Assembly: GCA_946699065.1 (NCBI GenBank)
Contig: CAMPDV010000949.1
Coordinates: 106,170 to 170,169 of the forward strand
Length of the DNA stretch: 64,000 bases
Reading direction: 5' to 3'
Source of the DNA: Loxodes magnus
Lineage: Eukaryota > Ciliophora > Karyorelictea > Loxodida > Loxodidae
Shown: piece after piece, positions 2,239 through 49,200 of the stretch
Numbering within the stretch: position 1 is the stretch's first letter
How the letters are laid out: each line of letters starts with the position of its first letter
Notes under the pieces: model-generated
The model's database searches: none
What the model was told of the DNA's origin: nothing
The model's input: only the letters and a program-made list of their open reading frames with translations
Made by a program: the position numbers and the translations under genes

Positions 2239-2263
2239 TTTTATCAAATTTATAAGATTAAAA

Positions 2264-2334
2264 ACGCATATCGTGAGACTCGAACCCACTAGATTAAGAG
2301 TCTGACTCGATTGAGTGTACTACGATTATTCTTT
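2264..2334 (-). tRNA. tRNA-Lys(CTT)-like sequence, possibly degenerate
   Basis: On the minus strand there is CAGA-CTCTTAA-TCTA, an anticodon loop consistent with CTT (Lys). It is followed by a good T-arm GTGGG-TTCGAGT-CTCAC, and ATCGT/ACGAT can pair near the ends. The D-arm (ACACTCAATCGAGT) is irregular and the acceptor register is off. It lies head-to-head with the plus-strand tRNA-like sequence just upstream; the pair is duplicated at 1441-1612. Confidence 0.38.
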
Positions 2335-2476
2335 ATAACTTATGTTTAATTTATTTTATTCCCTATATTTTTATATATAGCTATGCAAATATAATGTTTA
2401 AGTTTTTTTTCGAACACAGTCGTTAGATCAATTCTTTTAATCTATATTGAAAAAATTCTTTCTCTGAGTTTATTCA

Positions 2477-3368: not shown

Positions 3369-3385
3369 TTCTCCGAGTTTATTCA

Positions 3386-6300: not shown

Positions 6301-6767
6301 TTATTAATGAGAGATATTATATTACTAGTTGCTAAAAAACCATTCTAGAAATTATTTCCTTATTACTTAAATTTTAATCTAAATTCCAGAACTTTCTTTT
6401 AAATACTTCAAAAGATTAGATTACTTTCATATTTTTCTTTTAAAACTATAAAATTTCTGATCTTAAGTTGAAAATACTAATGAGCAACAATTTTGTATCT
6501 CTGCAATAAAAGCAGCTTGCTCGTAGTAGCCATTTAATTGAATGCAAGATATTAACAAAGTAATCTCAGATTAATTTATTGATATAGAAGTAGTTTGAGA
6601 TCAAATTTTTAAAGTTATAACGACAATAAAAGTTCGAATAGTGTATAAAACAAGGCAGAAGTTATTTTTTATAAAAGGATTACTAAATAAACAATGACTA
6701 GATATTTATCTAAAATGTAGATTATATGATAACAGTATTGAAAATACTACGTATAATATATAAAGGG
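3386..6767. other. AT-rich stretch without a supported gene
   Basis: After the target duplication the sequence is AT-rich with no recognisable motif, tRNA or conserved domain. From about 4.3 to 6.7 kb it has few long A or T runs and many TTAAG/AAGCTT-like words, a texture also seen at 24.8-26.5 kb and 47-52 kb. Short standard-code ORFs here have no supporting features. Confidence 0.5.
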
Positions 6768-6824
6768 AATAAGTTCTATCATATATATATATAGTAAACT
6801 AAAAGTAATTAAAGTTTAGCATTC

Positions 6825-6905
6825 CCTGGATTTTCAACCAGGTTTTTGCTACCATTTTTTTAGCGTGGATGGATACCACGCCATTTTTTTTGTGGATGGA
6901 ACCAC
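6825..6905 (-). other. 3'-terminal hairpin array of family A copy 1
   Basis: Three perfect small inverted repeats on the plus strand: CCTGG-ATTTTCAA-CCAGG (6825-6842), GCGTGG-ATGGATA-CCACGC (6863-6881) and GTGG-ATGGAA-CCAC (6892-6905). They are separated by T7-T8 runs. In element sense the terminal loop reads TTGAAAAT. The position just before the 3' tail suggests a structure recognised during reverse transcription, as known for stringent LINE/SINE 3' ends. Confidence 0.6.
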
Positions 6906-7604
6906 TGAGAATCTTCTGTCTTTTATACGAATATCTTCTTCTTGTAAATTCCCGTTTCGGTGATTCAGAGTCTGCTAAGCATTCTTAACGTTCTTTGTTG
7001 TTCTTTCATCTAAATTTATCATCACTGATCGCAATTTTGTAATAGGTGTCACTTTGATTTGCAATAATAGCAATTTTTGATTGGTCTTTTCTTGAATCTC
7101 TTCAGAAATACTTTTTTTTTCAAGTTAATCGATTCTTTGGAGTAATTTTATATTAATCTTTTCGTCATTCTATTTTTCTTGGATGTTTGTTTATGTAGAA
7201 ACTTTTTCAATAATCATATTTTGTTCTTGCTTAAAATTCGATTGAGATTATTCATATAGTTACTATTCCGTGACTAAATTATTTTAAATCAATTGTCGTC
7301 TTATTATTAGTAGCTCGTTGTTTTAATCTTCGATTGTATTCATTAGTTCTCTTATTTTTTCCCCTTGATTGTAAATTATTTCCTAATAATTTTGTATTAT
7401 TGTTTTCATTTAGTCAATTTATATTTATATTTCTGATTATTTTTGTACTTTTACTGGATTCGTCTCTATTGTTCCAATTATAACTTTTCCTTCAGATGAG
7501 GAACTTGATTTATCTTCTTCTTGTTATTGTTTCTGCATTAGTTTCGCAGCTTTCCTTTTTGCGTTCTTAATTTGGTTTTTGGAAAGGCGAATAGATTATT
7601 CCAT
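6850..7604 (-). CDS. gag/ORF1-like coiled-coil CCHC protein, one frameshift
   Basis: ATG at 7604 opens MEQSIRLSKNQIKNAKRKAA, followed by KSSSSSEGKV and a long coiled-coil (GEKIRELMNTIEDQNNELL). Near an A9 run (7112-7120) the coding frame moves by one. The shifted frame gives the knuckle CYYCKSKWHLLQNC and then LWITETGIYK. W in LWIT is TGA here, TGG in the copy at 29.6-30.4 kb and TGA again in the copy at 34.2-35.0 kb. The break may be decay or a homopolymer sequencing error; the rest aligns well with its relatives. Confidence 0.6.
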
Positions 7605-7628
7605 TTTTTTTTAATAAGTTCTATCATA

Positions 7629-8770
7629 GAAGTTAAAAATTAAATTAATTATTTTTAAAAGTAAAAGAACGAAGTTAAACTAGCCAAAAGTATATGAATT
7701 ACCCACAAATAGAGAATAAGAAATAATATTTATAAATAAATGATGTTAATAAAAATGTTATTATTGTCTATACGAATCTAAAACTTTAACATTGTGCAAG
7801 TTAATTGTTCTGAAAATTAAACTTCATATTTTAGAAAAGACTTATATAAAAAAAGGATTTTTAAATCTTTGTGAAGAAGCTATATCTTAACAACGAGTTG
7901 ATATTTAAAAGTTGTCTTTCATAGTTTACGTTTATATAGGGATTTCTTTTCAATTCAAGATCTTTTTCAAACAAAAGTGCTATAGAAGATTACTAAAAAT
8001 ACAGGGATTAAAAATATTTTTAACACATTTCTAAATCATTAAAAATTTATTATTAGTCGCAGATTGACTAAACAAATACTATATAACCTTCAAATATTTT
8101 AAAGATCTTAAAATTTAGTAACTTATCCATAATTACTAAAATTACTAAGAATTTAAAGTATAGAAAGTTTAAAATATTAATTTTGAAGTATTTCTTGTTC
8201 ATCATTTTTATTAGCTTCCCTCTAATGCTTGCTCATTGTTTCATTATAATTGTAATGTTCTAATTTTTGATACTGTTCTGTATCTTTGTTGAAGTAATCT
8301 AAATAAAGATATATTTGCTTTAGCATTTAATGTTTTATTATGATTATAAATTAGTGATTTATCTAATTTTTGCAATAATTTAATTTATTAAAATGATTAT
8401 TAATTTGCTTGATTGTTTCTTAAGTATTATTTAAACTTTAATCTTTTATTTATAACCTATTTAAACAAATTAATATTATCCTCTTATTTAAAAATAAGGG
8501 GTTTATTAAAATAATAATAATGAGACTTAAGTTTAGATAAAGAGAGTTAGTATGATTTAAATAATAAGGAAGATAATAATTAGTAGACTATTAAACTAAA
8601 AGTATTTCTATTATTAATATATTAATATATCTTTTATTTATATCTTAATTAAATTAAAGAAAACTTACTATTTCACTTTAATTCTAAAATATTATCATTA
8701 ACTGGGAGCAATCAAAGTTTTAATACTTTAGAAATTTTAATTTAAATTTTATCTGCATCATAACTAACTG
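7629..8770. other. AT-rich stretch without a supported gene
   Basis: The sequence between the right target copy and the next coding-like region is AT-rich with no motif, repeat unit or RNA gene that I can recognise. Confidence 0.5.
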
Positions 8771-8779
8771 AGAAACTAT

Positions 8780-10345
8780 TCGGAAAAAGAAAGTTTAAGT
8801 CACAAATCTAAAGAAATTAATAGATATTAGAAAGTTAAAATCTTAAGACTTTAAGGATTTACTGAAGCTATTGGAAGCTATTTTAATTTGAAAGAGAAAA
8901 ACAATTAATTGAGCAGAATAAGTATAAAGCACTAAAAATATTCGCTAAAAGCAAAATCTAAGATGCTAAAATAAACAAATAGAAAGTTTTATAATCATTT
9001 TGAATTTTAATTAGAGATATAGAGGAATTATCATAAAAAGAAAAGAAATAATTCATTAAATAATTGAAAAATTAGCAAAAATAGATAAATAAAGCTAACT
9101 TAAGACCATAAAATGAGCTACAGCCTGCAATTCTATAAATAGAAAGATTAATTGAAATTAAAAAGTTTAAATTGGACTTTAGTGAACTTGGAGGACTTTC
9201 AACCTCGTGTTCACAGGACCAGTTTGATAACCTGGCTGGAACCAGCTCCCTTCAGGACTCTTTCTTCAGTCGCCTTAGATTGTATATCACTTCGGTTTAT
9301 AGATTTGACCTCCTGACGGATAAAATTAGTTACAGAATTCTCGTCTAATCTTATCCTAATATTAGTACTATTATTTTTCTTATTATTTTCTATTCCAGTA
9401 CTATTATTTAATTAATTTCAATTTCTAACATTGTCTATATTTATGTCCAGTTTGTTTGCATACAAAACATCTTGGTTTATTCCTAATTCATTTCTTGTCT
9501 GGACTCCTCGGTAAATTAATAGCTCCTTCTATGTCCATTGGATCTTGAATTGTCTACTATTGCTACTTGCTGTTCTCTTCAAGCACAGTTGTTCTCTGCT
9601 TTAGCAATCCCATTTCCCTGAAGAAAGTGTTTTGCTCTCGATCGTAGACTTCCCAGAAGCTTTCTTTCCATTCCTTGAGCTCAGTAACTTGATTTTTTAG
9701 AGCTCTATTCTCTAATCGTAGCTTCTTTACTTCCTCCTTCAGGTCAGAGAATGCGACTAAAATTTATGCCTGTTCTTCCTGGAACTGTGGCATCGCAAAC
9801 TCTCGCATGGCTGCTGCTTCTTGCGTCTCCAGCACCTTTCTAGGTCCTTCCTCTTCAGTTGGTGTCATCGAGGTAGCTTTCGGCGCTTTTGTCCCATCTT
9901 TTAAGTTGATCTGGAAGTTCCTAGTTGAGTCTATTATTCTTGAAGGTTTTGAGAAGAAGATTATTTCTAGGAAGAAGACGTGTTAGTTAGAGATGAGGGT
10001 TCTTACTTTCTCTCCCCTTTTTAGGAGGTGGTATAAAAGCCTTTCTTGAACCCTTCTACCATTTTTTATATAAATAGAAAGATAAAAATATAATTTAAAG
10101 AAAGATATTTAATGTAAGAAAAAATATAGGAAATAAGACATAGAAAAAGACAGCTAAATTAAATCAATCTAGAAAGCCTATTTTAATTTTCTCTAGTAAA
10201 ATTCTGTTAGCATGTACTGATAGAAAGTGACTGAAGGATTTTTAACAATGATTTCACAAAATTATTTAAGATATCTTAAGTTTATATTAGGAAATTATAA
10301 AACTTACCTCTGGATCTTGCAAAAACTGAAGAAATGTAAAAAAGA
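8780..10345 (+). CDS. coiled-coil-like host coding region interrupted by a retroelement
   Basis: The left part (8780-9133) reads FEREKQLIEQNKYKAL, IRDIEELSQKEKKQFI and RPQNELQPAILQIER. It is then split by the element at 9152-10068. After the second copy of the duplication the frame continues IQIERQKYNLKKDIQ, IKSIQKAYFNFLQQ and KVTEGFLTMISQ. Both edges share QIER because the target duplication lies in the reading frame; removing 935 bp (element plus one target copy) joins them. A small indel near 8.9 kb is needed for the upstream segment. I do not recognise the protein; its Gln/Lys-rich helices suggest coiled coil. It may be a disrupted gene or a germline copy that is processed in the macronucleus. 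Confidence 0.42.
9180..10062 (-). CDS. gag/ORF1-like coiled-coil CCHC protein, one frameshift
   Basis: ATG at 10062 gives MVEGFKKGFYTTS, matching the family B copy at 2.5-3.4 kb. Near 9915 the frame shifts once. The second frame reads TPTEEEGPRKVLETQEA, a coiled coil (EEVKKLRLENRALKNQ), then the knuckle CFVCKQTGHKYRQC. QQYWNRK follows with W as TGG where the relative has TGA, and then GGQIYKPKW. Base composition is less AT-rich than the surroundings. Function is inferred: RNA-binding ORF1 protein of a retroelement. Confidence 0.62.
9182..9246 (-). other. 3'-terminal hairpin cluster of family B copy 2
   Basis: Outer stem GTGAAC/GTTCAC (9182-9187 with 9209-9214) encloses GAGG-ACTTTCAA-CCTC (9191-9206). 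Next come CCAG-TTTGATAAC-CTGG (9219-9235) and the inverted repeat GCTGGAACCAGC (9235-9246). In element sense the inner loop is TTGAAAGT, identical to the loop in family A at 29.6 kb, while its stem is GAGG/CCTC instead of CTGG/CCAG. That is a compensatory difference. Confidence 0.6.
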
Positions 10346-28400: not shown

Positions 28401-30859
28401 ATGGACATGTACAAAAATTCGCAAGATTTCTTTCTTAGCGACTCTTCTTTATCTAAAAATAAAGAAGCTGCTTTCTAAAGCGATGAGCATAGGCAGATGT
28501 TCAACTACTTTTATGAAATAGACATGGAATCGCTGCAACTTAAATCCGTTGATAGTATCATGATATTACTAAGAAATTTGCTAAAGAGCTGCAGTTAATG
28601 CCAAATTAATAGATATCTTCGAATTCCACTAAGACAGCTTGGCAATTCTTTAAAACGTGGACATTAATTGAAGACTAAACTCAAATATAGGAAATATACT
28701 TATAGGTAAAAAGACTAGCTTGTTACTTCAACCTCTACAATGGTATCTAAAATATCCTATATGCAGTAAGATACTTTAGATACTTAGGATATTTAAGATA
28801 TTTCTTTAATTAAAAACTAAAATTAAATTTAAATACAAAATTAATAAGAGACTATAAAAATTCAACAATTCAATACACAAAATAACATAAAAAGTCAATA
28901 GCAGATTTCAATAGACATTTAAACTGATTACTAAGAGAAGTTTGATATTACATACTTAACTGATCTTGAGATTTAAAAGGCGTAACTTTAAGAAAAAATT
29001 GCAAAATTAAAACATAAAATTTAAAGCAAGATAGAATAGGCAAATACTTTTGAAAATTAAAGGCTAAGTGAAAGCAAAAATCTTAAATTTCGAATTTAAA
29101 AACTCATAACTAAAAATAATTCTCTGTAAGAAAAGCTAATACATATCTATGAATAACACAATAAAGAAACTTTAAACATTAAATCACAATATAAAATACA
29201 CTTAGAATAATACCAAACTTATTTATTTAAAGCTAAAAAGTAAATTAAGAAAATTTAGAATAAAAATTAAATCTTAAGGCTTGATAATTAGTAGAAATAG
29301 TTAATGCTTTAGTCCAAATAATTTGTAAATAATGCTACAAATAAATAATAATCAATATAAACGAATACTGATCTTTCCTTAACTTAAATATAAGAATTGG
29401 AAACTTGGAGTTAACTTCTCACTTAGACTTAATAGCAAAGTATAGAAAAACAAGCTATGCTTCGTGAGGAGCTAATGAACATGACACAATCCTTTAAACT
29501 ACAAGATTAGGCAATACTTGCTTCCAAGTAAGAAGCCCAAAATATTAAAAACAACTTGGTTACTCAAATTTAATAATAATAATAGTAAACTAAATGTTAA
29601 AAAAATGTTTTGGCATATTCTGGACTTTCAACCAGTTCCTGCCGCCATTTTTTTAACTTGGATGGATACCACGACCATTTTTTTTATGTGGATGGTTGCC
29701 ACTGATTGCTTTCAAAAGAGCGCATAGACAGTTTTTATTTGTATATTCCTGTTGGAGTTATCCATAGAAAATTCAATGCTCTTCATGTTCTTTATTATAC
29801 CTTTTCATTTAATTTCTTTCATTCTCAGCATCTTCTTAATAAGTGGTAATTGGATTGGCAATATCAACATTATTTTTTAATCTTCTTTTGACTAATATGT
29901 TTTTTAAATAGCTTATTTTCAATATTTTCTAGTCTTTTAATTAAGTTATTATCATATCTAATTTCTTTCTGTTCTTAAACACTTCATAATGAAGTGAAAG
30001 TTTTTTCAATTTCCATCTTTGATGTACGTTAAGATTTTTATTGCGATTACATTCAAAGTTGTTCTTCCGTTATTACCATTAGCTTATTCTTAAGGATTTC
30101 CATTTCATTATTTTGCACGTCAATGTTTGTTGTAAGTTCCCGTATTAATAAGTCTTAATTATATATTGTTTCTTCGTATCTGGATATAATTTTTTACATT
30201 TGTTCGATCTTTTGTCGTAGTTCCTCTGAAATATCTGATTTAAATTCCTCAGCTTGCAAAGTTCTCATCATTATTTTACCTTATGAGTCGGAACTTAATT
30301 CTTCTTATTGTTTTTCTTTTTATCGAAGTACTTAAGCAGCCTTTTTCCGAGCATTTTTTATTTGATTTTTATTTAGTCTAATGTTCTGCTCCATCTTTTT
30401 TTTATTTTTCTGGTTACTCGAATTTAATTCATTCAAGCTGAATTGAGTAAATGTAATTTGAGACATAATGAAGTATAACAACATCTTAGGGAGGTAGAAG
30501 CTCTTAACTAAAATCTCAAAGGTGAAAATTTTCATTTATTAAGCAAAATAGATCAGATCGACTAAAAGGTACATTCACTCACAGTCAATTGCCAGTAACA
30601 ACAGGCTTAGTGTTAATTATTACAAAATGAGAATTATTAAATATCATAGGAACTGAGCTTTCAAAAAAATAAATATGCCAAATCAGTCAAAAGCATTTTT
30701 ACATAAACAATCACTCCTCAGGCATAGAATGAATAGACATAAATTGAAATTCAATTCAGCAACTAAATTCTCAAGCAACTATAACGACTTTAAATTCAAC
30801 TACTGGTACAGACTTATTATTTTTAGATCAATCTACCTAGTGCGACTTCGTTGAATTGA
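28401..30859 (+). CDS. coiled-coil protein gene split by a retroelement
   Basis: ATG at 28401 starts MDMYKNSQDFFLSDSSLSK and runs without a TGA for about 385 codons. After a globular N-terminus (MESLQLKSVDSIMILLRNLL) comes a long coiled coil (IQKAQLQEKIAKLKHKIQ, QELETWSQLLTQTQQQ, EELMNMTQSFKLQDQ). At codon 386 (LVTQIQ) it enters the retroelement at 29575-30410. Beyond the second target copy the frame resumes LVTRIQFIQAELSKCNLRHN, EVEALNQNLKGENFHLL. Deleting 854 bp (element plus one target) joins the two exactly in frame. A further shift is needed near 30.75 kb, so the end at TGA 30857-30859 is uncertain. Role unknown. Confidence 0.58.
29590..30394 (-). CDS. gag/ORF1-like coiled-coil CCHC protein, intact frame
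   Basis: ATG at 30394 opens MEQNIRLNKNQIKNARKKAA. A coiled coil follows (QKIEQMQKIISRYEETIYNQ, NEMEILKNKLMVITEEQL), then FIKRLENIENKL-like NLIKRLENIENKL, then the knuckle CWYCQSNYHLLRRC whose W is TGA. The C-terminus has FLWITPTGIYKQKL with W as TGG. The frame is continuous to the 3' hairpins with no clear stop, so the true end is unclear. Neighbours are the split host gene on the other strand. Likely RNA-binding packaging protein of the element. Confidence 0.65.
29620..29702 (-). other. 3'-terminal hairpins of family A copy 2
   Basis: CTGG-ACTTTCAA-CCAG (29620-29635) and GTGG-ATGGTTG-CCAC (29688-29702) are perfect. The middle structure (TGG-ATGGATA-CCA) has only three pairs here. Spacing and T-rich linkers match the copy at 6.8 kb. 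In element sense the terminal loop is TTGAAAGT. Confidence 0.55.
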
Positions 30860-32039: not shown

Positions 32040-35000
32040 TAGAATAACCATAATAATGCAAACAAGAATTTGGGAATTAAGAAATAAAGATCCTATCGAT
32101 AAGCAAAGAGAGATAGGCATAATAAAGCTTGGACATATTAACATAAATGGAATTGGAAGCAAGCAATTAAACGTGGAAGAATTTATACAAAATAATGACT
32201 TAGACATTTTCTCAATTAATGAAACGTGATAAAAATAAGACTATCCTCCAATACTTATTAATGAATATAGGACCTATTTCAAGAACTCAGGAAAAGGAGG
32301 AGGAGTTTGCTTAATTGTTAGAGATTAACTTAATAGCACGGAATAGAATAACATATAACAATTAGCTCAAGAGAGGTTCGTTACAATCAAACTAGATAAT
32401 ATATTCATAACATCTTGTTACATACCAGATAACAGCAAGAGTGAAAATATAAAAGACGAAGCATATGAATATATAAATATATTCCTTAATTATTTTCCTG
32501 ACAACTCACATATATTATTAGGAGATTTTAACGCTCTACTATAAGGCTTTGGGGATAACCCTATTAACAACTATGACAATACAAATAGATTCTAAGAATT
32601 CATTCTCTAAAACGATTTATAAATAATAAACGATGCAAATATGAACGCATGCTTACATAAAGGGAATAAAAATATGTATTGCAACGATTATATTGTCATC
32701 AGTAATCACTTGAATATGAATTAATTTAGAAATTTTCAGGTTCATAATTATAGCTTATTTTCAGATCATATTCCATTCACAGTTGAATTTGTATATCATA
32801 CTCATCTTCAAACTGAAAAAATAAAAGTGAGAAAGCACAAAATAAGTAGACTGTAGGATCCTATTGATAGATTTATCTATTAGAATTAATTCAAAGATTA
32901 AGTAGAAGTATTCTTCCTAATTGATAGAGATAACTTAGAAGATTAGTACACTTATATTAGAGACTGTATTTAGAACAATGCAGATTAAGTTTTAGGCTCA
33001 TTTATCCCAGACCCGAAGTATAATAGACTTCCTAAGGACCTCACATAAAAATATATCGAAGCAAAGAGAGCAAATTAATTGTATAAAGAAACTTTAGCAT
33101 ATATAGGGAGGAATAACTAAGAAATCATTGATCTTCACTAAAGAGCGAACACATTATGAAAAAGCTTTTAGCATCATTTATGAAAATTTAAAAAACAAAA
33201 AGCCAAAAACAGATTCCTACTCCTCAATGAAACCACAAAAGATATGTTTTCTTAAGCAAAGAAAATACTTAACCCTAGACAAAGAAATTCGATGAACTTT
33301 AATAAGGAATTGAAGGATTAATTTGTAGAAGCATGGGAAAATTAGGTATTTAGCAAGCATTCAAATTTAACTAACCAATAGATTGAACTAAGTAACTAGA
33401 AAATAGATGCAATTTATGAAAATAACATAGAAATTCAAAATTAACCCTTTTCTTACTTATAAAATTTCGATCCTTTTACAATAGAAGAGATTACCTAACT
33501 TATAAGTCTAATTCCTAATGGTAAAGCAGCAGGGCCAGATGGAATTAAAGGAGAACTGCTAAAATATGCAGGATATTATCTAGCGTTGATGCTTCATTCT
33601 TTTATAAATAACATGCTTAGAATTGGAAGGATTCCCGAAGAGCTTAATACTTCTATCATAATCCCCATTTTCAAAAAAGGAAGTAAAGACGATTGAAAAA
33701 ACTGACGCCCTATTTCCCTTATCAACACTATTTTGAAATTATATGATAAGGCCCTTACGAAGAGACTCTACTCAATAATTTATGAAAGACAGTTAATCCA
33801 CTCAAACTAAATGGGGTTTATGAAGAACAAATAAACCACCTAATAAATATGAGTGATCCGATAAATCATAGATCTTTATCGAAAACAAGTGAAAGAAAAA
33901 ACTAAACTGATTGCAACTTTAATTGACGTAGAGAAAATGTTTGATTCTATTGAAAGAAGAATTCTTTTTAAATAACTAAGAAGAGTCAAATTACCACTAG
34001 GTCTCATCTTGGCTTTAGAATCATTTTATAATAACTTAACTACTTCCTTTATTATAGACGGAACAAATTCTAAGAAATTGAAATTTAGCAATGGAGTGAT
34101 GTAAGGAAGTTCACATGGACCTGTGCTTGCATTATTATACTATGACATTGTCGAGAAAAAAATGGATTAATCTCTTCGACTCTCAAAGAATTAACTTAAA
34201 AACCTAAAGAGAAAAGCGGCAAAAAAAATTTAGAAAAAACAATAGCAACGAGAGGAGTCAAGTTCGTCATCAGAAGGTAAAGTGATGGTAGGATCTATAG
34301 AGATAAGATAACCTAAAAACGAATCTGATCAAAAACTTTAAATTTAACTAGATCAAATGTAAAAATTAATTTCAAAGTATGAAGAAATAGCTTATAACTA
34401 AGGAGAAAAAATAAGGGAATTAATGAATAGCATAGAGGATTAAAACAACGAATTATTAATACTCAGAAGACAGCTCATTCAAAGCAATTTGATAACGGAA
34501 GAACAACTCTGAACTTAGTCACAATAAAACTTTAAATATGACACGAAAATGGAAATAGAAAAAATACCAATAGAATTAAAAACAGAATTGAATCCAGAAA
34601 AAGAAATGATTGCTACAAGTTTCATTAAAAGATTAGAAAATATAGAAAATAAATTATCATAAAAAAGAACGAAATAAAGACAATAATACAAACTTTGTTG
34701 ATGTTGCAAATCAAATCAACATATTTTAAAAAACTGTTGATAATGAAAGAAAATAAACGAATAAGAGCAGAAAAGAACATGGAGACAACTCAATAAACTA
34801 TGAATAACTCCAACAGGGATCTACAAATAAAAGCTTTTTGCAAGACCACTTGAACGGTTACAGTGGTAACCTTCCACTTAATAAAAAGGTCGTGGATCAC
34901 ACCCACGTTAAAAAAACTGTCCGCAGGAACTGGTTGCAATTCCAGAGAATGCAAAACTCTACTAACTTTAAGTATATTATTATTATTATTATTATTACTA

Positions 35001-36300
35001 TGGCATTGTCATTAGAAATATAGAAAACAAAGGAGAAATATTAGGATTCAGATGTGCTAATTTTAAGAATAGGTTCACTTGTAGAGGTTGAGCTGACGAT
35101 TTAATTTTATTATCGAACTCATAAAAAAATATGTAGTCACTTATTAATGAAGCAAACTCCATTTTCAATTAGACATTTCTTAAAATAAATGTCTCCAAAT
35201 GCGAAACGTTATAGTTTTAAAAAAAGAAAAGCAAAGAAACAAAACTAGACTTAAAAATAGGAGACCAAACAATAATTTAGAAACAGCAAGTCACATATTT
35301 AGGGGTGATCCTTCACCAAAAGAAAAATCTAATTAACCATTGCAAATACGTTGCTGCAAACTATCTTTCAGCAATTAAAAAGGCAGTATTTGCATTATCA
35401 AGATATAGAAACGTAACACCTTGAAATTTCAAAATGCTTTGTAGACTGTTCACGCTTCCTAAAGCAGAATACGGTGGGGACTTAATACCTTGGACTGTGT
35501 AGTATGGAATAAATGGAATCTTGAAAAGAATTGAAAAGAGCATGAGGTTAATAGCCAGAAAAGCCTTTTAATCAGTAGGAAATACGTTTAATGAATCTGC
35601 TTTGTAGACCTCAACTGGATGGCATTCAAACACATGATGGCTCTTACGTATTTCAGGTTTTTCTTTAAGATTAGAAATGAAAGCTAAAATCAACGTTTCT
35701 CATCTATTGGATATTGTTTGAGAATAATTATAAAGAGGGATATCAATATTATGATTAAGTTTAGAAGCTGGCCTCATTTTATAAAATAGAAATTGATAAC
35801 AAAGAGCACAATAACAACTTAACTTAATTCCATAGATATGTGTAGGCCTAAATATAAAAGACATATTCTGAATTAGCTCTTTCAAGATTCAGCAGAATGC
35901 CTACTGCAAAAATATATACTGAACAATTTTAAAACCCAAGATAATTCCCTCTAATTAAATACACGAAATTAAACAAAAAATATTTGAAAGAAATAATCTT
36001 GCATCTATAAGATTAGAAGCCAGTCTTACGCATTTCGAAAGACTTTGAAAGATCGAAATTATATTATTGAAAACACTTTTTGTATATGCGGAGAATATAA
36101 AACTCTTCAACAAGCAATGGAATGAATATATTACATTGATATAAGAGAATGATTGATCTTCAAAATTGGTTAATGTGATATTTTGAAACTAATAAATTAA
36201 GATTAACTATATATAAACTCCCTTAATAAGAAAAAAAAAGAAATAGTGGATGAATAAATAAAATTATCATTCAAATGTTTATCAAAAGGAGGCGAGAAAT
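32040..36300 (+). CDS. LINE endonuclease-reverse transcriptase (split by nested insertion)
   Basis: Endonuclease signatures are GHININGIGSKQLNVEEF, SINETW (W = TGA 32227-32229), GDFN (32521-32532) and SDH (32761-32769). RT signatures are NGKAAGPDGIKGELLKY, DWKNWRPISLIN (both W are TGA, 33694-33696 and 33703-33705), motif A LIDVEKMFDSIER (Asp at 33925) and motif B GVMQGSSHGPVLALLYY. Motif C reads GWADDLILL (35086-35100 onward; the usual YADD has W from TGA), and VTYLGVIL follows. A C-terminal CICGEY lies near 36.08 kb. The insertion of 858 bp (element plus target) is a multiple of three, so the flanks share a frame. Catalytic Asp residues are present, but the copy cannot work while split. Confidence 0.75.
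34162..34978 (+). CDS. gag/ORF1-like coiled-coil CCHC protein
   Basis: ATG at 34162 opens MDQSLRLSKNQLKNLKRKAA, then REESSSSSEGKVMVGSI and a coiled coil (GEKIRELMNSIEDQNNELL). FIKRLENIENKLSQK follows, then the knuckle CWCCKSNQHILKNC (C-x2-C-x4-H-x4-C; W is TGA). LWITPTGIYKQK has W as TGA where the 29.6-kb copy has TGG. The frame is continuous to the hairpins. The family relationship is seen directly; RNA binding is inferred from the knuckle. Confidence 0.65.
34862..34945 (+). other. 3'-terminal hairpin array of family A copy 3
   Basis: Three perfect inverted repeats: AGTGG-TAACCTT-CCACT (34862-34878), CGTGG-ATCACAC-CCACG (34891-34907) and CTGG-TTGCAATT-CCAG (34930-34945). The order and spacing match the two other family A copies although the loops differ. 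The ATT tail follows about 30 bp later. Confidence 0.6.
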
Positions 36301-36605: not shown

Positions 36606-39600
36606 AAAAAACTTAATATCTAAATTAAATTTAAATCTAACTATTTTTATCTTACTTAAAATTAAATAAAATTTAAATCTAACTATTTTTATCTTACATA
36701 AAATTAAATAAAATTTAAATCTAACTATTTTTATCTTACATAAAATTAAATATAATTTAAATATAACTATTTTTATCTTACATAAAATTAAATATAATTT
36801 AAATCTAACTATTTTTATCTTACATAAAATTAAATATAATTTGAATCTAACTATTTTTATCTTACATAAAATTAAATAAAATTTGAATCTAACTATTTTT
36901 ATTTTACATAAAATTAAATATAATTTGAATCTAACTATTTTTATCTTACATAAAATTAAATAAAATTTGAATCTAACTATTTTTATCTTACATAAAATTA
37001 AATAAAATTTAAATCTAACTATTTTTATAAAATTAAATAAAATTTAAATCTAACTAATTTTATAAAATTAATTTAAATAATATATCTAACTATTTTATCT
37101 TACATAAAATTAAATAAATATTGTATCTAGCTATTTTTATCTTACATAAAATTAAATAAAATTTAAATCTAACTATTTTTATCTTACATAAAATAAAATA
37201 AATATTGTATCTAGCTATTTTTATCTTACATAAAATTAATTAAAATTTAAATCTAACTATTTTTAACTTACATAAAATTAAATAAAATTTGAATCTAACT
37301 ATTTTTAACTTACATAAAATTAAATAAAATTTGAATCTAACTATTTTTATCTTACATAAAATTAAATAAAATTTAAATCTAACTATTTTTATAAAATTAA
37401 ATATAATTTGAATCTAACTATTTTTATAAAATTAATTAAAATTTAAATCTAACTATTTTTATAAAATTAAATATAATTTGAATCTAACTATTTTTAACTT
37501 ACATAAAATTAAATTAAATTTAAATCTAACTATTTTTATAAAATTAAATATAATTTGAATCTAACTATTTTTATCTTACATAAAATTAACGAAATATTTT
37601 TTCTAACTATTTTTATCTTACATAAAATTAAATAAAATTTAAATCTAACTATTTTTATCTTACATAAAATTAAATAAATAATTTATCTAACTATTTTTAT
37701 AAAATTAAATAAATAATTTATCTAACTATTTTTATCTTACATAAAATTAAATAAAATTTAAATCTAACTATTTTTATAAAATTAAATAAAATTTGAATCT
37801 AACTATTTATATCTTAAATAAAATTAAATTAAATTTAAATCTAACTATTTTTATCTTACATAAAATTAAATAAAATTTAAATCTAACTATTTTTATAAAA
37901 TTAAATATAATTTGAATCTAACTATTTTTATCTTACATAAAATTAACGAAATATTTTTTCTAACTATTTTTAACTTACATAAAATTAAATTAAATTTAAA
38001 TCTAACTATTTTTAACTTACATAAAATTAAATTAAATTTGAATCTAACTATTTTTATCTTACATAAAATTAAATATAATTTGAATCTAACTATTTTTATC
38101 TTACATAAAATTAAATTAAATTTAAATCTAACTATTTTTAACTTACATAAAATTAAATATAATTTGAATCTAACTATTTTTATCTTACATAAAATTAAAT
38201 AAAATTTAAATCTAACTATTTTTATAAAATTAAATATAATTTGAATCTAACTATTTTTATCTTACATAAAATTAACGAAATATTTTTTCTAACTATTTTT
38301 AACTTACATAAAATTAAATTAAATTTAAATCTAACTATTTTTAACTTACATAAAATTAAATATAATTTGAATCTAACTATTTTTATCTTACATAAAATTA
38401 AATTAAATTTAAATCTAACTATTTTTATCTTACATAAATTTAAATAAAATTTAAATCTAACTATTTTTATAAAATTAAATTAAATTTAAATCTAACTATT
38501 TTTATCTTACATAAAATTAAATTAAATTTAAATCTAACTATTTTTATCTTACATAAAATTAAATTAAATTTAAATCTAACTATTTTTATCTTACATAAAA
38601 TTAAATTAAATTTAAATCTAACTATTTTTATCTTACATAAAATTAAATAAAATTTAAATCTAACTATTTTTATCTTACATAAAATTAAATTAAATTTAAA
38701 TCTAACTATTTTTATCTTACATAAAATTAAATAAAATTTAAATCTAACTATTTTTATATTACATAAAATTAAATATAATTTGAATCTAACTATTTTTATC
38801 TTACATAAAATTAAATTAAATTTAAATCTAACTATTTTTATATTACATAAAATTAAATAAAATTTAAATCTAACTATTTTTATAAAATTAAATATAATTT
38901 AAATCTAACTATTTTTATCTTACATAAAATTAAATTAAATTTAAATCTAACTATTTTTATATTACATAAAATTTAATAAAATTTAAATCTAACTATTTTT
39001 ATAAAATTAAATTAAATTTAAATCTAACTATTTTTATCTTACATAAAATTAAATAAAATTTAAATCTAACTATTTTTATAAAATTAAATAAAATTTAAAT
39101 CTAACTATTTTTATAAAATTAAATAAAATTTAAATCTAACTATTTTTATAAAATTAAATATAATTTGAATCTAACTATTTTTATAAAATTAAATATAATT
39201 TAAATCTAACTATTTTTATAAAATTAAATATAATTTGAATCTAACTATTTTTATCTTACATAAAATTAAATTAAATTAAATTTAAATCTAACAATTTTTA
39301 TCTTACATAAATTTAAATAAAATTTAAATCTAACTATTTTTATAAAATTAAATATAATTTGAATCTAACTATTTTTATCTTACATAAAATTAAATTAAAT
39401 TTAAATCTAACTATTTTTATATTACATAAAATTAAATAAAATTTAAATCTAACTATTTTTATAAAATTAAATTAAATTTAAATCTAACTATTTTTATCTT
39501 ACATAAAATTAAATAAAATTTAAATCTAACTATTTTTATAAAATTAAATATAATTTGAATCTAACTATTTTTATAAAATTAAATATAATTTGAATCTAAC

Positions 39601-42600
39601 TTCTTTTATCTTACATAAAATTAAATAAATAATTTATCTAACTATTTTTATAAAATTAAATTAATATTTTATCTAACTATTTTTATCTTACATAAAATTA
39701 AATTAAATTTAAATCTAACTATTTTTATCTTACATAAAATTAAATAAAATTTGAATCTAACTATTTTTATCTTACATAAAATTAAATATAATTTGAATCT
39801 AACTATTTTTATAAAATTAAATTAAATTTAGATCTAACTATTTTTATCTTACATAAAATTAAATTAAATTTAAATCTAACTATTTTTATATTACATAAAA
39901 TTTAATAAAATTTAAATCTAACTATTTTTATAAAATTAAATTAAATTTAAATCTAACTATTTTTATAAAATTAAATTAAATTTAAATCTAACTATTTTTA
40001 TCTTACATAAAATTAAATAAAATTTAAATCTAACTATTTTTATCTTACATAAAATTAAATAAAATTTAAATCTAACTATTTTTATTAAATTAAATAAAAT
40101 TTAAATCTAACTATTTTTATAAAATTAAATATAATTTGAATCTAACTATTTTTATCTTACATAAAATTAAATAAATAATTTATCTAATTATTTTTATAAA
40201 ATTAAATAAATATTTTATCTAACTATTTTTATCTTACATAAAATTAACGAAATATTTTATCTAACTATTTTTAACTTACATAAAATGAAAATAAAATTTA
40301 GATCTAACTATTTTTATCTTACATAAAATTAAATAAAATTTAAATCTAACTATTTTTATCTTACATAAAATTAAATAAATAATTTATCTAATTATTTTTA
40401 TAAAATTAAATAAATATTTTATCTAACTATTTTTATCTTACATAAAATTAACGAAATATTTTATCTAACTATTTTTAACTTACATAAAATTAAATAAAAT
40501 TTAAATCTAACTATTTTTATAAAATTAAATAAAATTTAAATCTAACTATTTTTATAAAATTAATTAAAATTTAAATCTAACTATTTTTAAAAATTAAATA
40601 TAGATTGAATCTAACTATTTTTAACTTACATAAAATTAAATTAAATTTAAATCTAACTATTTTTATCTTACATAAAATTAAATAAAATTTAAATCTAACT
40701 ATTTTTATAAAATTAAATATAATTTGAATCTAACTATTTTTATCTTACATAAAATTAAATTAAATTAAATTTAAATCTAACTATTTTTATATTACATAAA
40801 ATTAAATAAAATTTAAATCTAACTATTTTTATAAAATTAAATTAAATTTAAATCTAACTATTTTTATCTTACATAAAATTAAATAAAATTTAAATCTAAC
40901 TATTTTTATAAAATTAAATATAATTTGAATCTAACTATTTTTATCTCACATAAAATTAAATTAAATTTAAATCTAACTATTTTTATATTACATAAAATTA
41001 AATAAAATTTAAATCTAACTATTTTTATAAAATTAAATATAATTTGAATCTAACTATTTTTATCTTACATAAAATTAAATTAAATTTAAATCTAACTATT
41101 TTTATAAAATTAAATAAAATTTAAATCTAACTATTTTTATAAAATTAAATATAATTTGAATCTAACTATTTTTATCTTACATAAAATTAAATAAATAATT
41201 TATCTAACTATTTTTATAAAATTAAATTAATATTTTATCTAACTATTTTTATAAAATTAAATATAATTTGAATCTAACTATTTTTATCTTACATAAAATT
41301 AAATAAAATTTAAATCTAACTATTTTTATAAAATTAAATAAAATTTAAATCTAACTATTTTTATAAAATTAAATATAATTTGAATCTAACTATTTTTATC
41401 TTACATAAAATTAAATTAAATTTAAATCAAACTATTTTTATATTACATAAAATTAAATATAATTTAAATCTAACTATTTTTATAAAATTAAATAAAATTT
41501 AAATCTAACTATTTTTATAAAATTAAATAAAATTTAAATCTAACTATTTTTATAAAATTAAATATAATTTGAATCTAACTATTTTTAACTTACATAAAAT
41601 TAAATTAAATTTAAATCTAACTATTTTTATCTTACATAAAATTAAATAAAATTTAAATCTAACTATTTTTATAAAATTAAATATAATTTGAATCTAACTA
41701 TTTTTATCTTACATAAAATTAAATTAAATTTAAATCTAACTATTTTTATATTACATAAAATTAAATAAAATTTAAATCTAACTATTTTTATCAAATTAAA
41801 TAAAATTTAAATCTAACTATTTTTATAAAATTAAATAAAATTTAAATCTAACGATTTTTATAAAATTAAATAAAATTTAAATCTAACTATTTTTATCTCA
41901 CATAAAATTAAATTAAATTTAAATCTAACTATTTTTATCTTACATAAATTTAAATAAAATTTAAATCTAACTATTTTTATAAAATTATATATAATTTGAA
42001 TCTAACTATTTTTATCTTACATAAAATTAAATTAAATTTAAATCTAACTATTTTTATAAAATTAAATAAAATTTAAATCTAACTATTTTTATAAAATTAA
42101 ATATAATTTGAATCTAACTATTTTTATCTTACATAAAATTAAATAAATAATTTATCTAACTATTTTTATAAAATTAAATTAATATTTTATCTAACTATTT
42201 TTATAAAATTAAATATAATTTGAATCTAACTATTTTTATCTTACATAAAATTAAATAAAATTTAAATCTAACTATTTTTATAAAATTAAATAAAATTTAA
42301 ATCTAACTATTTTTATAAAATTAAATATAATTTGAATCTAACTATTTTTATCTTACATAAAATTAAATTAAATTTAAATCAAACTATTTTTATATTACAT
42401 AAAATTAAATAAAATTTAAATCTAACTATTTTTATAAAATTAAATAAAATTTAAATCTAACTATTTTTATAAAATTAAATAAAATTTAAATCTAACTATT
42501 TTTATATTACATAAAATTAAATAAAATTTAAATCTAACTATTTTTATAAAATTAAATATAATTTGAATCTAACTATTTTTAACTTACATAAAATTAAATT

Positions 42601-45600
42601 AAATTTAAATCTAACTATTTTTATCTTACATAAAATTAAATTAAATTTAAATCTAACTATTTTTATCTTACATAAAATTAAATAAATAATTTATCTAACT
42701 ATTTTTATAAAATTAAATATAATTGAATCTAACTATTTTTATCTTACATAAAATTAAATATAATTTGAATCTTACTATTTTTATATTACATAAAATTAAA
42801 TAAAATTTGAATCTAACTATTTTTATCTTACATAAAATTAAATAAAATTTAAATCTAACTATTTTTATAAAATTAAATAAAATTTAAATCTAACTATTTT
42901 TATCTTACATAAAATTAAATTAAATTTAAATCAAACTATTTTTATCTTACATAAAATTAAATTAAATTTAAATCTAACTATTTTTATCTTACATAAAATT
43001 AAATATAATTTGAATCTAACTATTTTTATCTTACATAAAATTAAATAAAATTTAAATCTAACTATTTTTATAAAATTAAATAAAATTTAAATCTAACTAT
43101 TTTTATAAAATTAAATAAAATTTAAATCTAACTATTTTTATAAAATTAAATAAAATTTAAATCTAACTATTTTTATAAAATTAAATAAAATTTAAATCTA
43201 ACTATTTTTATAAAATTAAATATAATTTGAATCTAACTATTTTTATCTTACATAAAATTAAATTAAATTAAATTTAAATCTAACTATTTTTATCTTACAT
43301 AAATTTAAATAAAATTTAAATCTAACTATTTTTATAAAATTAAATATAATTTGAATCTAACTATTTTTATCTTACATAAAATTAAATTAAATTTAAATCT
43401 AACTATTTTTATCTTACATAAAATTAAATATAATTTGAATCTAACTATTTTTATATTACATAAAATTAATTAAATATTATAGCTAACTATTTTTATAAAA
43501 TTAAATAAAATTTAAATATAACTATTTTTATATTACATAAAATTAAATATAATTTGAATCTAACTATTTTTATCTTACATAAAATTAAATATAATTTAAA
43601 TCTAACTATTTTATCTTACATAAAATTAAATAAAATTTGAATCTAACTATTTTTATCTTACATAAAATTAAATAAAATTTAAATCTAACTATTTTTATAA
43701 AATTAAATAAAATTTAAATCTAACTATTTTTATCTTACATAAAATTAAATTAAATTTAAATCTAACTATTTTTATCTTACATAAAATTAAATAAAATTTA
43801 AATCTAACTATTTTTATATTACATAAAATTAATTAAATATTATAGCTAACTATTTTTATAAAATTAAATAAAATTTAAATCTAACTATTTTTATAAAATT
43901 AAATATAATTTGAATCTAACTATTTTTATCTTACATAAAATTAAATTAAATTTAAATATAACTATTTTTATCTTACATAAAATTAAATTAAATTTAAATC
44001 TAACTATTTTTATCTTACATAAAATTAAATAAAATTTAAATCTAACTATTTTTATCTAACATAAAATTAAATAAATAATTTATCTAACTATTTTTATAAA
44101 ATTAAATAAATATTTTATCTAACTATTTTTAACTTACATAAAATTAAATAAAATTTGAATCTAACTATTTTTATCTTACATAAAATTAAATAAAATTTAA
44201 ATCTAACTATTTTTATAAAATTAAATATAATTTGAATCTAACTATTTTATCTTACATAAAATTAAATAAAATTTAAATCTAACTATTTTTATCTTACATA
44301 AAATTAAATAAATAATTTATCTAACTATTTTTAAAAAATTAAATAAATATTTTATCTAACTATTTTTAACTTACATAAAATTAAATAAAATTTAAATCTA
44401 ACTATTTTTATCTTACATAAAATTAAATAAAATTTAAATCTAACTATTTTTATAAAATTAAATATAATTTGAATCTAACTATTTTTATCTTACATAAAAT
44501 TAAATTAAATTTAAATCTAACTATTTTTATCTTACATAAAATTAAATAAAATTTAAATCAAACTATTTTTATAAAATTAAATATAATTTGAATCTAACTA
44601 TTTTTATCTTACATAAAATTAAATAAAATTTAAGACTAACTATTTTTATCTTACATAAATTTAAATAAAATTTAAATCAAACTATTTTTATAAAATTAAA
44701 TATAATTTGAATCTAACTATTTTTATCTTACATAAAATTAAATAAAATTTAAATCTAACTATTTTTATCTTACATAAATTTAAATAAAATTTAAATCTAA
44801 CTATTTTTATAAAATTAAATATAATTTGAATCTAACTATTTTTATCTTACATAAAATTAAATTAAATATAAATCTAACTATTTTTATCTTACATAAAATT
44901 AAATAAAATTTAAATATAACTATTTTTATATTACATAAAATTAAATATAATTTGAATCTAACTATTTTTATCTTACATAAAATTAAATATAATTTGAATC
45001 TAACTATTTTTAACTTACATAAATTTAAATAAAATTTAAATCTAACTATTTTTATAAAATTAAATATAATTTGAATCTAACAATTTTTATCTTACATAAA
45101 ATTAAATTAAATTTAAATCTAACTATTTTTATCTTACATAAAATTAAATAAATATTATAGCTAACTATTTTTATAAAATTAAATAAATATTTTATCTAAC
45201 TATTTTTAACTTACATAAAATTAAATATAATTTGAATCTAACTATTTTTATCTTACATAAAATTAAATTAAATTTAAATCTAACTATTTTTATCTTACAT
45301 AAAATTAAATAAATAATTTATCTAACTATTTTTATAAAATTAAATAAATATTTTATCTAACTATTTTTATCTTACATAAAATTAAATAAAATTTAAATCT
45401 AACTATTTTTATCTTACATAAAATTAAATAAAATTTAAATCTAACTATTTTTATAAAATTAAATAAATATTGTATCTAGCTATTTTTATCTTACATAAAA
45501 TTAAATATATAATTTATCTAATTATTTTTATAAAATTAAATAAATATTTTATCTAACTATTTTTAACTTACATAAAATTAAATATAATTTGAATCTAACT

Positions 45601-46250
45601 ATTTTTATCTTACATAAAATAAAATTAAATTTAAATCTAACTATTTTTATCTTACATAAAATTAAATAAATATTTTATCTAACTATTTTTAACTTACATA
45701 AAATTAAATATAATTTAAATCTAACTATTTTTAACTTACATAAAATTAAATAAAATTTAAATCTAACTATTTTTATAAAATTAAATATAATTTGAATCTA
45801 ACTATTTTTATCTTACATAAAATTAAATAAAATTTAAATCTAACTATTTTTATAAAATTAAATATAATTTGAATCTAACTATTTTTATCTTACATAAAAT
45901 TAAATTAAATTTAAATCTAACTATTTTTATCTTACATAAAATAAAATAAATATTGTATCTAGCTATTTTATCTTATCTAAGATCAAATAAATATTAAATC
46001 TAACTTTTTTTATCTTACATAAAATTAAATAAAATTTAAATCTAACGATTTTTATAAAATTAAATAAATATTTTATCTAACTATTTTTATCTTATCTAAA
46101 ATTAAATAAAATTTAAATCTAACTATTTTTATCAAATTAAATAAAATTTAAATCTAACTATTTTTATAAAATTAAATAAAATTTAAATCTAACGATTTTT
46201 ATAAAATTAAATAAATTTAAATCAACTATTTTTATCTTACATAAAATTAT
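36606..46250. repeat. 9.6-kb satellite with interspersed 42-bp and 35-bp units
   Basis: The array is built on a unit containing AAATTTAAATCTAACTA and TTTTTATCTTACATAAAATT (42 bp, e.g. spacing of CTAACT from 36679 to 36721). A shorter 35-bp form lacks CTTACAT (e.g. 37015 to 37050). Long and short forms alternate irregularly, with variants such as ATTAACGAAATATTTT. By length there are roughly 240 units. Short open frames within it are by-products of repetition. It begins where LINE-derived sequence fades out. Confidence 0.92.
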
Positions 46251-49200
46251 TTAAAGGTGTTTGATTTGATTTTTTTATTTTATTTCTTTTGCTTTTTCAT
46301 TAATCTAAATAGTTCTTTTTATTAATAAATATATATTTTTAAATCGAAAGTTTTCATTTTTTGTAATTTATTTTAGATTTTCGAAGAATCTTTTTTTTTT
46401 CTTATATCTTTATATTTTGTCATTATTTATATTTAATAATATTTTATTTCTTTACAGTTTTAATTATTTAGCTACGTTGCATTTTATAAAATTTTTTATT
46501 TATTTTTTATTCAAAACTTTACAAAGGATTAAAGTGTTCGATTACTTATATTTCAATTTGACTTAAAATCTTTTGCTAAAATTTTTTTTTTTTAGTTTTG
46601 TCTTTAGCAGTATTCCTATTCCTAATACTTCTAACTTTCTTTTTTATAACCTAAGTGTCAAAAGCATTTAATTTGTTTGTCTGACTGCTTTTATTAAGAA
46701 GTCAATTGTTTGTCTTATTTATAGTGATTCAAGTTATGTAAAATTATGATATAATGAAAATGATACAAAGATAATTGAATACAAATATAGTTCTAAAACT
46801 TGATTTGACTTTCCTATTGACTTATTTATAATTCAATATATTCTTTTGAATTTAAAAATACAACGTAAAAGCTTAAAGAAATATACTTGATTGTATAATT
46901 ATACTAATGTTCTGCATTTAAGCAAAACAGTTTTTCAAGAATAACTTAATTAAAGATACTTACTTTTATTTTGATGCTATAAAAAATTTATTTTTTTAGT
47001 TTTTTATAAAGTATGCTTACAATCTTTATTTAAACTTTAGCAGAAACTATTATTTTATATAATTAAAATAATTAAGGAATATATTATTTTTTAATTCAGA
47101 AAATGCTTAAGCTTCATAATACAAGGCTTAAAGTTAACTTTATTAGTAGTTTAAATTTGTTAATTATTCCGTTAGCTTAAACTTAAATATATCTAAAAAG
47201 CAATAAGAGAATTTTAACTCTATAGAAAATAATAGAGCTATATTAATCTATTTATTAAGATAAGGTTAAAATAATAAGAGATACTTTAAAAGATAACAAC
47301 TAAAAGTTATTTTGCTAATTTTCTTATATTTTATCTAAGTAAAAATAAAAAATTTAGTTAATTATCCTAAAATAATTTTTACTAAATGCCTCTTATGAAA
47401 TATATCTTAGCTTTACAATTATTTCAATTTTAATTGATCAATAAATAAAAATAGAATGCTTGGCAAACCATAATTGAAATTAGTTGAATAAAAGTATTTT
47501 AATTAATTAAAATTTAACATTCTAGATATTAAAGAATAATTTGAAACTTCATTAATTTTAGTAAATAAAAAAATAAATTTTAGAGGTAAAATTTAAAATT
47601 TCTTCTATAAAGATAAATATAAAAAATCAAGTTTAATATGCTTTAATTTTAAAATGTATGAATTTTAGAATGAATCTAGTGTTTTAAGTAGCATTATTGT
47701 AAGAAAATGCAATCAGTTCACGTTTTTATATTCTCTTACTTAAATTTTATAATTTACTTTAATTATTCAATAAATTCCTTAATTATTTATTTAATGAAAA
47801 AAATTTATTATAATTTGAATACTTAGTTTAAAAATTAATAAAAGAATCTTTATTTTTTGAAACTCTAAATTATTTTTTAAAGTTTTTAACTTATTTCGTA
47901 AAAAATTTAAAATACATTTGTATTTATATATTTGAACAAATTTAATTATTAAAAATTAAAAAATTGTTTATAATGCATAACTATAATGTATTTTAAATAG
48001 ATAGAATAGCCATTTAAATTTAAAATAATATACTCTTAAAGAGAAATAGTTAGAATGCTATATAGATAATAATTTTATATTTAATTATCTAGCAATTTTA
48101 GAAATAATAGCATTATTTAATTATTAAACTTATTTTTCTTCATTTATTTAATACTACTATTATAACTAAAAATATTCTTTCCAAAGAGTTTCTATAGAAA
48201 ATCCATAATCTAAGTATTTAAGTTAAGTTAGTTTAATCATAAAGTTTCATTTTATGTTCTTAATAAATAATAGAGGTTTTGCTTATATGATGATACTATT
48301 TTATGTAAGTTATTACTTATGCTTGGTAGCTTATTTAATTATTATCATTTTAATGCTCTATTTTTTATTAAAAGTGACAGCGGTGGGATTTTAACCCACG
48401 CCCCAAAAGATTAGTGCCTAAGAGCACTCGGTCACACTGTCTGTTATTAATAGGATATTAATTTCTTTAAATATTCTAACTTTGAAACTAATTAATTATA
48501 TACAAGGTTACTTATATTTTGTTATTATTATAATAAGCATTCATTCCTTATCTTAAAAACTTAAACCTTTATGCTTATCAAGTTAGTAAATAAATAGTTT
48601 AATTAAATAAAATTTTTAATTGATAGCACTTATATCTAAAAGCTATTTTACTCTAAAAAGTTTGAATATCCTTATATTTTTATTCTTCTTTGAAATTAAA
48701 TGAATAACCTTAATTAGCTTTTTAAATGCTAATATAATAATATTGCTAATTTAATAATTATTAAGTTTCTTATTCTATTAGAATATATATCATTAAGCTA
48801 CTAAACATTTCTGAAATAGATATTATAATAGTTAAATTATTATATAGAAACTACTTCAACTGCTTACTTTTTACGATTCTTAAGAACTAAATTTCAAATT
48901 TATTTAATCTTATTAAAGTATTTTATTTATTAATTAAAAATCACTTTAATTTAGAAAGAAAGCCTGTTTATCTAATTTAAGCAGATACTTCCCTAAAATG
49001 AAGTTCTAAATATAAGTGTATTAAAATAATTAATATAATTAAATTTGTTTAATGTTTAAGTTATATATCTAGAAATCTAAAGCTTAAGCTTATTAAATTA
49101 ATTACTAACTTATTAATAATTATTTAGAGCTTAGTTTATTTTAATATCGCACTATTTCTTTAAAATTATAAAATAAATAGACTCTTAAACTATTAATTTC

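Follow-up and report, generated by a model that had tools for sequence, protein, structure and literature searches.

How does a retroelement spread when it encodes a single protein and no enzyme for its own copying, and why should that protein be kept? The question is raised by an element at positions 29575-30410 of a 64,000-nt stretch of Loxodes magnus DNA (contig CAMPDV010000949.1, positions 106,170 to 170,169), which is hereafter called the window. An initial annotation had described this element as one of five related copies, each bounded by a target duplication and coding for one coiled-coil protein. The published description of the 706 Mb Loxodes magnus MAC assembly gives 915 interspersed repeat families, the majority of which have no classification, along with two or more LINE families that are 5-6 kb long (PMC11441545).

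The five solo-ORF1 elements fall into two subfamilies. Subfamily A is represented in the window by A1 (2477-3368, ATG at 3359) and A2 (about 9149-10068, ATG at 10062), and subfamily B by B1 (6784-7612, ATG at 7604), B2 (29575-30410, ATG at 30394) and B3 (34153-34995, ATG at 34162). All lie on the minus strand except B3, which is on the plus strand. The boundaries first proposed were correct to within a few bases, with the start of A2 now placed at about 9149 rather than at 9152. Each unit is 0.83-0.92 kb long and is composed of an A-rich leader, an ORF, a 3' hairpin in most of the subfamilies read, and a short repeat tail. At the start of the fetched copies, which were taken as best matches and so favour full-length copies, an A-rich stretch lies about 5-17 nt upstream of the ATG. 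Microsatellite tails had been noted on most copies, and they end four of the five window elements. The tail is of the TTGAA type in A1, TA in B1, and (ATT)n in both B2 (29575-29583) and B3 (about 34975-34995). A2 is the exception, as it simply ends in a short AT-rich stretch. All 28 B2-family loci have tails with two or more ATT units, and the tails of the fetched A2-family loci are short and AT-rich. No endonuclease (EN) or reverse transcriptase (RT) was found within any of the five elements, as the initial annotation had said.

The window has a G+C content of only 21.6%, and its reading frames are open only when TAA and TAG are read as sense. With TAA and TAG as Q and TGA as W, a CX2CX4HX4C knuckle can be read in all five elements, for example CYFCKSQNHLYRRC in A1 and CFVCKQTGHKYRQC in A2. 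Two of the window copies, A2 and B1, have a frameshift ahead of the knuckle. The A2-family copy L036 lacks this frameshift, and both the knuckle and an in-frame IYK motif are present in A1, B2, B3 and L036, as proposed for the two subfamilies. The protein has a disordered start, a long helix, the knuckle and then G-IYK, and in subfamily A about 50 residues lie C-terminal of the knuckle. An AlphaFold2 model of the A2-family protein, whose mean pLDDT of 63.5 supports claims about the helix only, predicts residues 92-170 as one helix with high confidence and residues 1-79 as disordered. The C, C, H and C positions and IYK are kept in four aligned proteins, from the A2 family, A1, B3 and L050, the last two of which are close relatives.

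A search of 5.8 billion proteins with the A1 protein gave 113 candidates, none at an E value of 0.01, and no Pfam family scored above its cut-off for pieces of A1, A2 (the frameshifted window copy) or B3. Within the B frame, nine rows were compared, which include B3 itself (L059) and two rows that share flanks (L052 and L053). Codons 207 and 214 are in-frame TGA in some rows and TGG in others, and codons 117 and 180 vary likewise between TGA and TAT; single rows carry TAA, AGA, AAA, TTA or GAT at some of the B-frame TGA sites, and every row has TGA at codon 195. B3 has no in-frame TGA after codon 214, and its third-position excess runs to about codon 238. Judged from these codon patterns, TGA is a sense codon inside the B frame.

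The second line of evidence concerns the insertions themselves. Duplications of 15-18 bp had been recognized by eye around all five elements, and all five are present, two of them exact and three with one mismatch. A1 is flanked by 17 bp with one mismatch, B1 by an exact 16 bp (6768-6783 and 7613-7628) and A2 by an exact 15 bp. The 18-bp left copy at B2 (TGGTTACTCAAATTTAAT, 29557-29574) and the 15-bp left copy at B3 (TACTATGACATTGTC, 34138-34152) each differ at one position from their right copies (30411-30428 and 34996-35010, respectively). When duplications are scored as length minus 4 per mismatch, all five elements reach at least 11, a value attained by 2 of 1000 placements drawn at random within the window.

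The same feature recurs across the two families whose loci were fetched in number. At 28 B2-family loci the longest exact duplication averages 15.0 bp (9-19), compared with 7.1 (5-10) at controls 300 bp away, and it is at least 13 bp long at 26 of them; the 9-bp minimum belongs to the window copy, whose 18-bp repeat holds one mismatch. At 30 A2-family loci, several of which share flanks and so represent fewer than 30 independent insertions, the mean is 14.6 bp (controls, 6.7), with at least 12 bp at 28. A clear duplication is missing only from L056 (8 bp) and L058 (7 bp), both of which are included in the mean. Overall, the duplications of the small elements vary in length and are mostly 13-18 bp.

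Unoccupied target sites were also found, for A1, A2, B2 and B3. Those of B2 and B3 can be read base by base in LINE copies L071 and L061, and they confirm duplications of 18 and 15 bp, respectively. When the flanks of A1 or A2 are joined computationally, they match through the junction in 40 of 40 scored genome places for A1 (83-94% identity) and are matched in 40 of 40 for A2 (93-95% identity). Eight pairs of adjacent unoccupied A1 and A2 sites occur on seven contigs; six pairs are spaced at 4.87-4.88 kb, one at 4.98 and one at 4.51. Because this spacing fits the window distance of 4.92 kb that remains when A1 and B1 are subtracted, the repeat copies would likewise lack B1, which points to an unoccupied B1 target site as well.

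In addition, and overlooked in the initial annotation, A1, A2 and, by the same spacing, B1 are inserted in another dispersed repeat (window about 2200-10300), which carries the A1 and A2 sites on the seven contigs at a separation of 4.5-5.0 kb. Two tRNA-like stretches, GGGTTCAAATCC and, on the opposite strand, GGGTTCGAGTCTC, lie at window positions 2180-2340 in the repeat entered by A1. ARAGORN listed no tRNA, and Rfam listed nothing at gathering level for window positions 1-36300.

Members of these families are abundant in the genome. We searched the 705,730,643-base assembly, scoring the best 40 places for each query. For the B2 query all 40 places are near full length, with the 39 others at 97% identity, and the best 40 are likewise near full length for A1 (98-100% identity), A2 (98-100%) and B3 (99-100%). 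The genome search suggested by the initial annotation revealed four multi-copy families. First-look candidates numbered 2808 for B2, 1099 for A2, 2774 for A1 and 3136 for B3, figures that are pointers to copy number and not counts. Mean identity within families is 99.5% for B2 (26 copies) and 98.0% for A2 (19 copies), and these many near-identical copies are a record of recent activity. Further A- or B-like pieces were encountered in fetched flanks (L003, L031, L050, L052/L053 and L055) or through their 3' hairpins (L057, L079 and L084), some of which look like further subfamilies.

Comparisons between the subfamilies reveal that the protein has been constrained. Between the B2 family and B3, dN is 0.40 and dS 3.07, for a dN/dS of 0.13, whereas the other two frames give 0.89 and 0.76; between B1 and B3 the ratio is 0.14 over 180 codons (dS 2.55). 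These between-subfamily ratios are rough because synonymous sites are near or at saturation, and for B1 against B2 and A1 against A2 saturation leaves no ratio (dN 0.49 and 0.64, respectively). The contrast between the coding frame and the other frames is nevertheless clear. Differences within families present another picture. They were counted in 26 of the 28 B2-family loci (two share flanks) and in 19 of the 30 A2-family loci (eight share flanks and three were unparsed). The ratios of nonsynonymous to synonymous singletons, 13/6 and 69/29, are near the expected values of 2.24 and 2.4, and the shared variants number 3/4 and 14/6. In the A2 family, constraint is absent from singletons and shared variants alike. 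Frame-disturbing indels are found in none of the 26 B2-family copies over the first 618 bases. The within-family differences look neutral, and this result, combined with the low dN/dS between subfamilies, implies that the protein has been preserved from lineage to lineage, whereas its recent copies are drifting. Purifying selection in the past is thus evident.

This constraint also separates the elements from a more familiar class. SINEs are short, non-autonomous elements with a repeat tail, target duplications and an inferred dependence on the RT of LINEs, but they code for no protein. The elements described here code for a protein that is constrained between subfamilies, and the interpretation as plain SINEs was rejected on these grounds. 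What the window contains are complete, RT-less, protein-coding elements in at least two related subfamilies, with fixed ends and flanking duplications.

If the elements make no enzyme, the machinery that copies them should be sought among the resident LINEs. Both B2 and B3 lie within a LINE-I copy (28394 to about 36635, plus strand), B3 in its RT region, a nesting that the initial annotation had overlooked. The copy encodes an N-terminal coiled coil, an endonuclease, an RT and an acidic C-terminal part; its ends in the window are approximate, and the final 80-90 bp of intact copies was not found there. Because the two small elements are nested in this one copy, they must have moved after it landed. 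The EN and RT of LINE-I score above Pfam cut-offs. Among the best 64 of 13,933 candidate places for the LINE-I EN-RT protein, the others are at 91-92% identity, and the score of 94 for the window copy itself is an effect of the code. A LINE-I copy read in pieces (C253) is about 6.6 kb long and holds coiled coil, EN and RT in one frame. LINE-I begins with AAAAAAATGGA, an A-run-ATGG start like that of the small elements, and has target duplications of 14-16 bp in each of the three copies whose two ends were read. Over 150 RT residues it is 66% identical to a second family, LINE-II, which occupies at least 40 genome places (40 were scored).

One LINE-II copy (L056) also holds an A2-family element and an extra insert of about 285 bp (positions 385-670 of that locus), which corresponds to a gap in other copies and suggests another short family. 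Following the 3' part of the window LINE-I copy is a tandem array of about 10 kb (window 36700-46500), composed of short AT-rich units that by eye are about 35-42 bp long.

The 3' ends offer a possible connection between the small elements and these LINEs. A two-tier hairpin at 29612-29643 (minus strand) of B2 has the form GGCA..CTGG-TTGAAAGT-CCAG..TGCC, and the hairpin of A2 at 9182-9214 (minus strand) carries the same loop, as GTGAAC..GAGG-TTGAAAGT-CCTC..GTTCAC. In B3 the hairpin at 34923-34952 (plus strand) is CTGG-TTGCAATT-CCAG, with a 3-bp lower stem in the window copy, and in B1 the hairpin at 6817-6851 (minus strand) is followed by CTTTTAGTTTA and then by the TA tail. Simple shuffles give z scores of -4.5 for B1 and -4.2 for B2, with a weak fold signal or none for B3 (-0.15), A2 (-1.22) and A1 (+1.26). 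The loop pattern derived from A2 and the B elements occurs at seven distinct places in all fetched DNA, after matches near locus ends and near-duplicates are dropped, and each is followed by an AT-rich end or tail. All seven ends have a complementary lower stem, a result equalled by 16 of 5040 permutations of the arms; A1, whose loop lacks the pattern, is outside this test, and the arms labelled B3 in it are those of the relative L050, since the window B3 pairs 3 bp and not 4. Because the loop pattern and motif were chosen after inspection, this result is support rather than proof.

At the ends of LINE-I and LINE-II, a two-tier hairpin (z scores of -3.4 and -3.7) is followed by a spacer of 14 nt, then by TTTTAGTTAAA or TTTTAGTTTA, and finally by an AT repeat tail; the LINE-II string used as query is present in three of five copies. 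Several of the small elements have their 3' parts in the same order. The 11-mer CTTTTAGTTTA is common to B1 and the LINE-II 3' end and occurs twice in 327,200 background positions; TTTAGTTTA in B2 is also shared and occurs 16 times in the same background. The exact terminal motif is missing from A1, A2 and B3, and no hairpin sequence common to small elements and LINEs was found, as their sequences differ. The search for RT-bearing relatives with the same 3' end, as proposed in the initial annotation, thus recovered a shared architecture and a short shared motif, but no parent among the parts of LINE-I and LINE-II that were read.

A CX2CX4HX4C knuckle is absent from the N-terminal part of LINE-I and from the 689 bp before EN, in frame with it, in one LINE-II copy. 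When the A1, A2 and B3 proteins were compared by BLASTP with the N-terminal part of LINE-I, the best E value was 0.088. LINE-I is accordingly not supported as the source of the ORF1. It had been recognized from the outset that the elements might be fragments of a longer RT-encoding element, or that their flanking duplications might not be borne out by empty alleles. With respect to the LINE-I and LINE-II sequences read, the former is ruled out by the fixed position of both ends, by the duplications in most fetched copies and by the empty sites. The latter is countered for A1, A2, B2 and B3, whose targets also occur in unoccupied form.

What is observed, then, is that these insertions are self-contained, have duplications and tails of the LINE type, spread recently, and code for a protein under constraint but for no enzyme. 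We consider it very probable that these are solo-ORF1 non-LTR retroelements, which carry an ORF1p-like gene and are copied in trans by the EN-RT of a resident LINE, with the protein favouring its own RNA. According to this model, the element RNA would be translated, the coiled-coil protein would oligomerize, and its knuckle would coat mainly the RNA from which it was made. An EN-RT, supplied by LINE-I, LINE-II or a relative, might then take up the resulting particle by way of the 3' hairpin, terminal motif and tail, and a new copy would be made by target-primed reverse transcription. Cis preference is the simplest reason for the protein sequence to be kept even though no enzyme is made. Absent such a preference, selection would have little cause to maintain a protein that an element does not need in order to be copied. 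Alternatively, the selection may have acted in RT-bearing parents outside the LINE parts read. The true helper and any ORF1-bearing LINE may lie beyond LINE-I and the partly read LINE-II.

There is precedent for such elements in another ciliate. Seven solo-ORF1 elements (A-G), terminated by a zinc finger and believed to be mobilized in trans, are known from Paramecium (PMC5405496). Like the elements described here, they lack RT and, by their description, have one ORF1 with a zinc finger in a ciliate host (PMC5405496). A (TAAA)n terminal repeat is present in three of the seven Paramecium elements, and their zinc finger resembles that of the ORF1 of resident LINE groups 1-3 (PMC5405496), whereas the LINE parts read here lack the knuckle. 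Copies of transposable elements in Paramecium were described in 2019 as mainly highly degenerate (PMC6586856), in contrast to the 97-100% identity to the query at the best places here. Beyond the Paramecium case, the present analysis contributes evidence on target duplications, unoccupied sites, selection and 3' hairpins.

It is possible, though less likely than not, that the solo elements arose, perhaps repeatedly, when a LINE carrying a separate ORF1 of the same family lost its ORF2, so that the selection acted in RT-bearing parents. Mammalian HAL1, or half-L1, is a non-autonomous LINE derivative that likewise encodes only ORF1p, and it is reported to have arisen several times from L1 (PMC5753468). 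The resemblance of the Paramecium zinc finger to those of three LINE groups, the great divergence between subfamilies A and B, and the lack of constraint inside the A2 family are all consistent with such an origin. HAL1 derives from L1, however, and no comparable parent was found among the two LINE families read here; neither the LINE-I N-terminal part nor the LINE-II segment before EN holds the knuckle, and the best BLASTP match to LINE-I has an E value of only 0.088. We think it unlikely that the elements instead form an old, independent ORF1-only lineage, kept by selection in cis without any RT-bearing relative, or that they supply a shared ORF1 to knuckle-less, single-ORF LINEs in a split retrotransposon system.

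The specific case in which LINE-I and LINE-II depend in trans on the solo-ORF1 protein, making the small elements partners and not passengers, seems more doubtful still. A parallel would be provided by HeT-A of Drosophila, which has no RT itself and whose Gag is believed to assist, and be assisted by, the RT of TART. HeT-A is telomeric, whereas the elements here are small, dispersed and flanked by target duplications. It codes for Gag, and TART or TAHRE is believed to provide the RT that its retrotransposition requires (PMC6114517). By analogy, a partnership could account for LINE parts that have no N-terminal knuckle and solo elements that have no RT, both of them recent and numerous. LINE-I nevertheless has a long coiled coil of its own. 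Single-ORF LINEs can also move without a separate ORF1.

Even less probably, the elements are retrocopies, in the style of processed pseudogenes, of a host gene that encodes a protein with coiled coil and zinc knuckle: a short A-rich leader, target duplications and the lack of RT would fit mRNA retrocopies, but the tails are microsatellites and not poly(A), the 3' hairpins have compensatory arms, and the copies form several diverged subfamilies, each of them multi-copy, between which the coding sequence is constrained. It is scarcely credible that the ORF arose by chance in AT-rich DNA read with a single, ambiguous stop codon, for although long frames are frequent under TAA/TAG=Q (98 ORFs of at least 150 aa in the window), the low dN/dS relative to the other frames, the undisturbed B2-family frames and the alternation of in-frame TGA with TGG and TAT all argue against it.

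The reading of these units as solo-ORF1 elements mobilized in trans also puts their novelty in perspective. A protein-coding but RT-less passenger had been called unusual in comparison with ordinary SINEs, but the Paramecium elements are a precedent, and analogies exist in HAL1 and HeT-A. For Loxodes, such elements were not found reported in the literature searched or in the main text of the genome description (PMC11441545). The Loxodes elements are a well-supported additional case of a known kind, and the missing ORF1-bearing LINE is the interesting point.

Because the protein is the only contribution that such an element makes to its own copying, the cis preference of ORF1-type proteins becomes testable, and recent copies are plentiful in this genome, spread over several diverged subfamilies. 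The findings probably extend the solo-ORF1 kind of element from Paramecium to a karyorelict, and solo-ORF1 families may put a name to some of the many unclassified repeats of Loxodes magnus.
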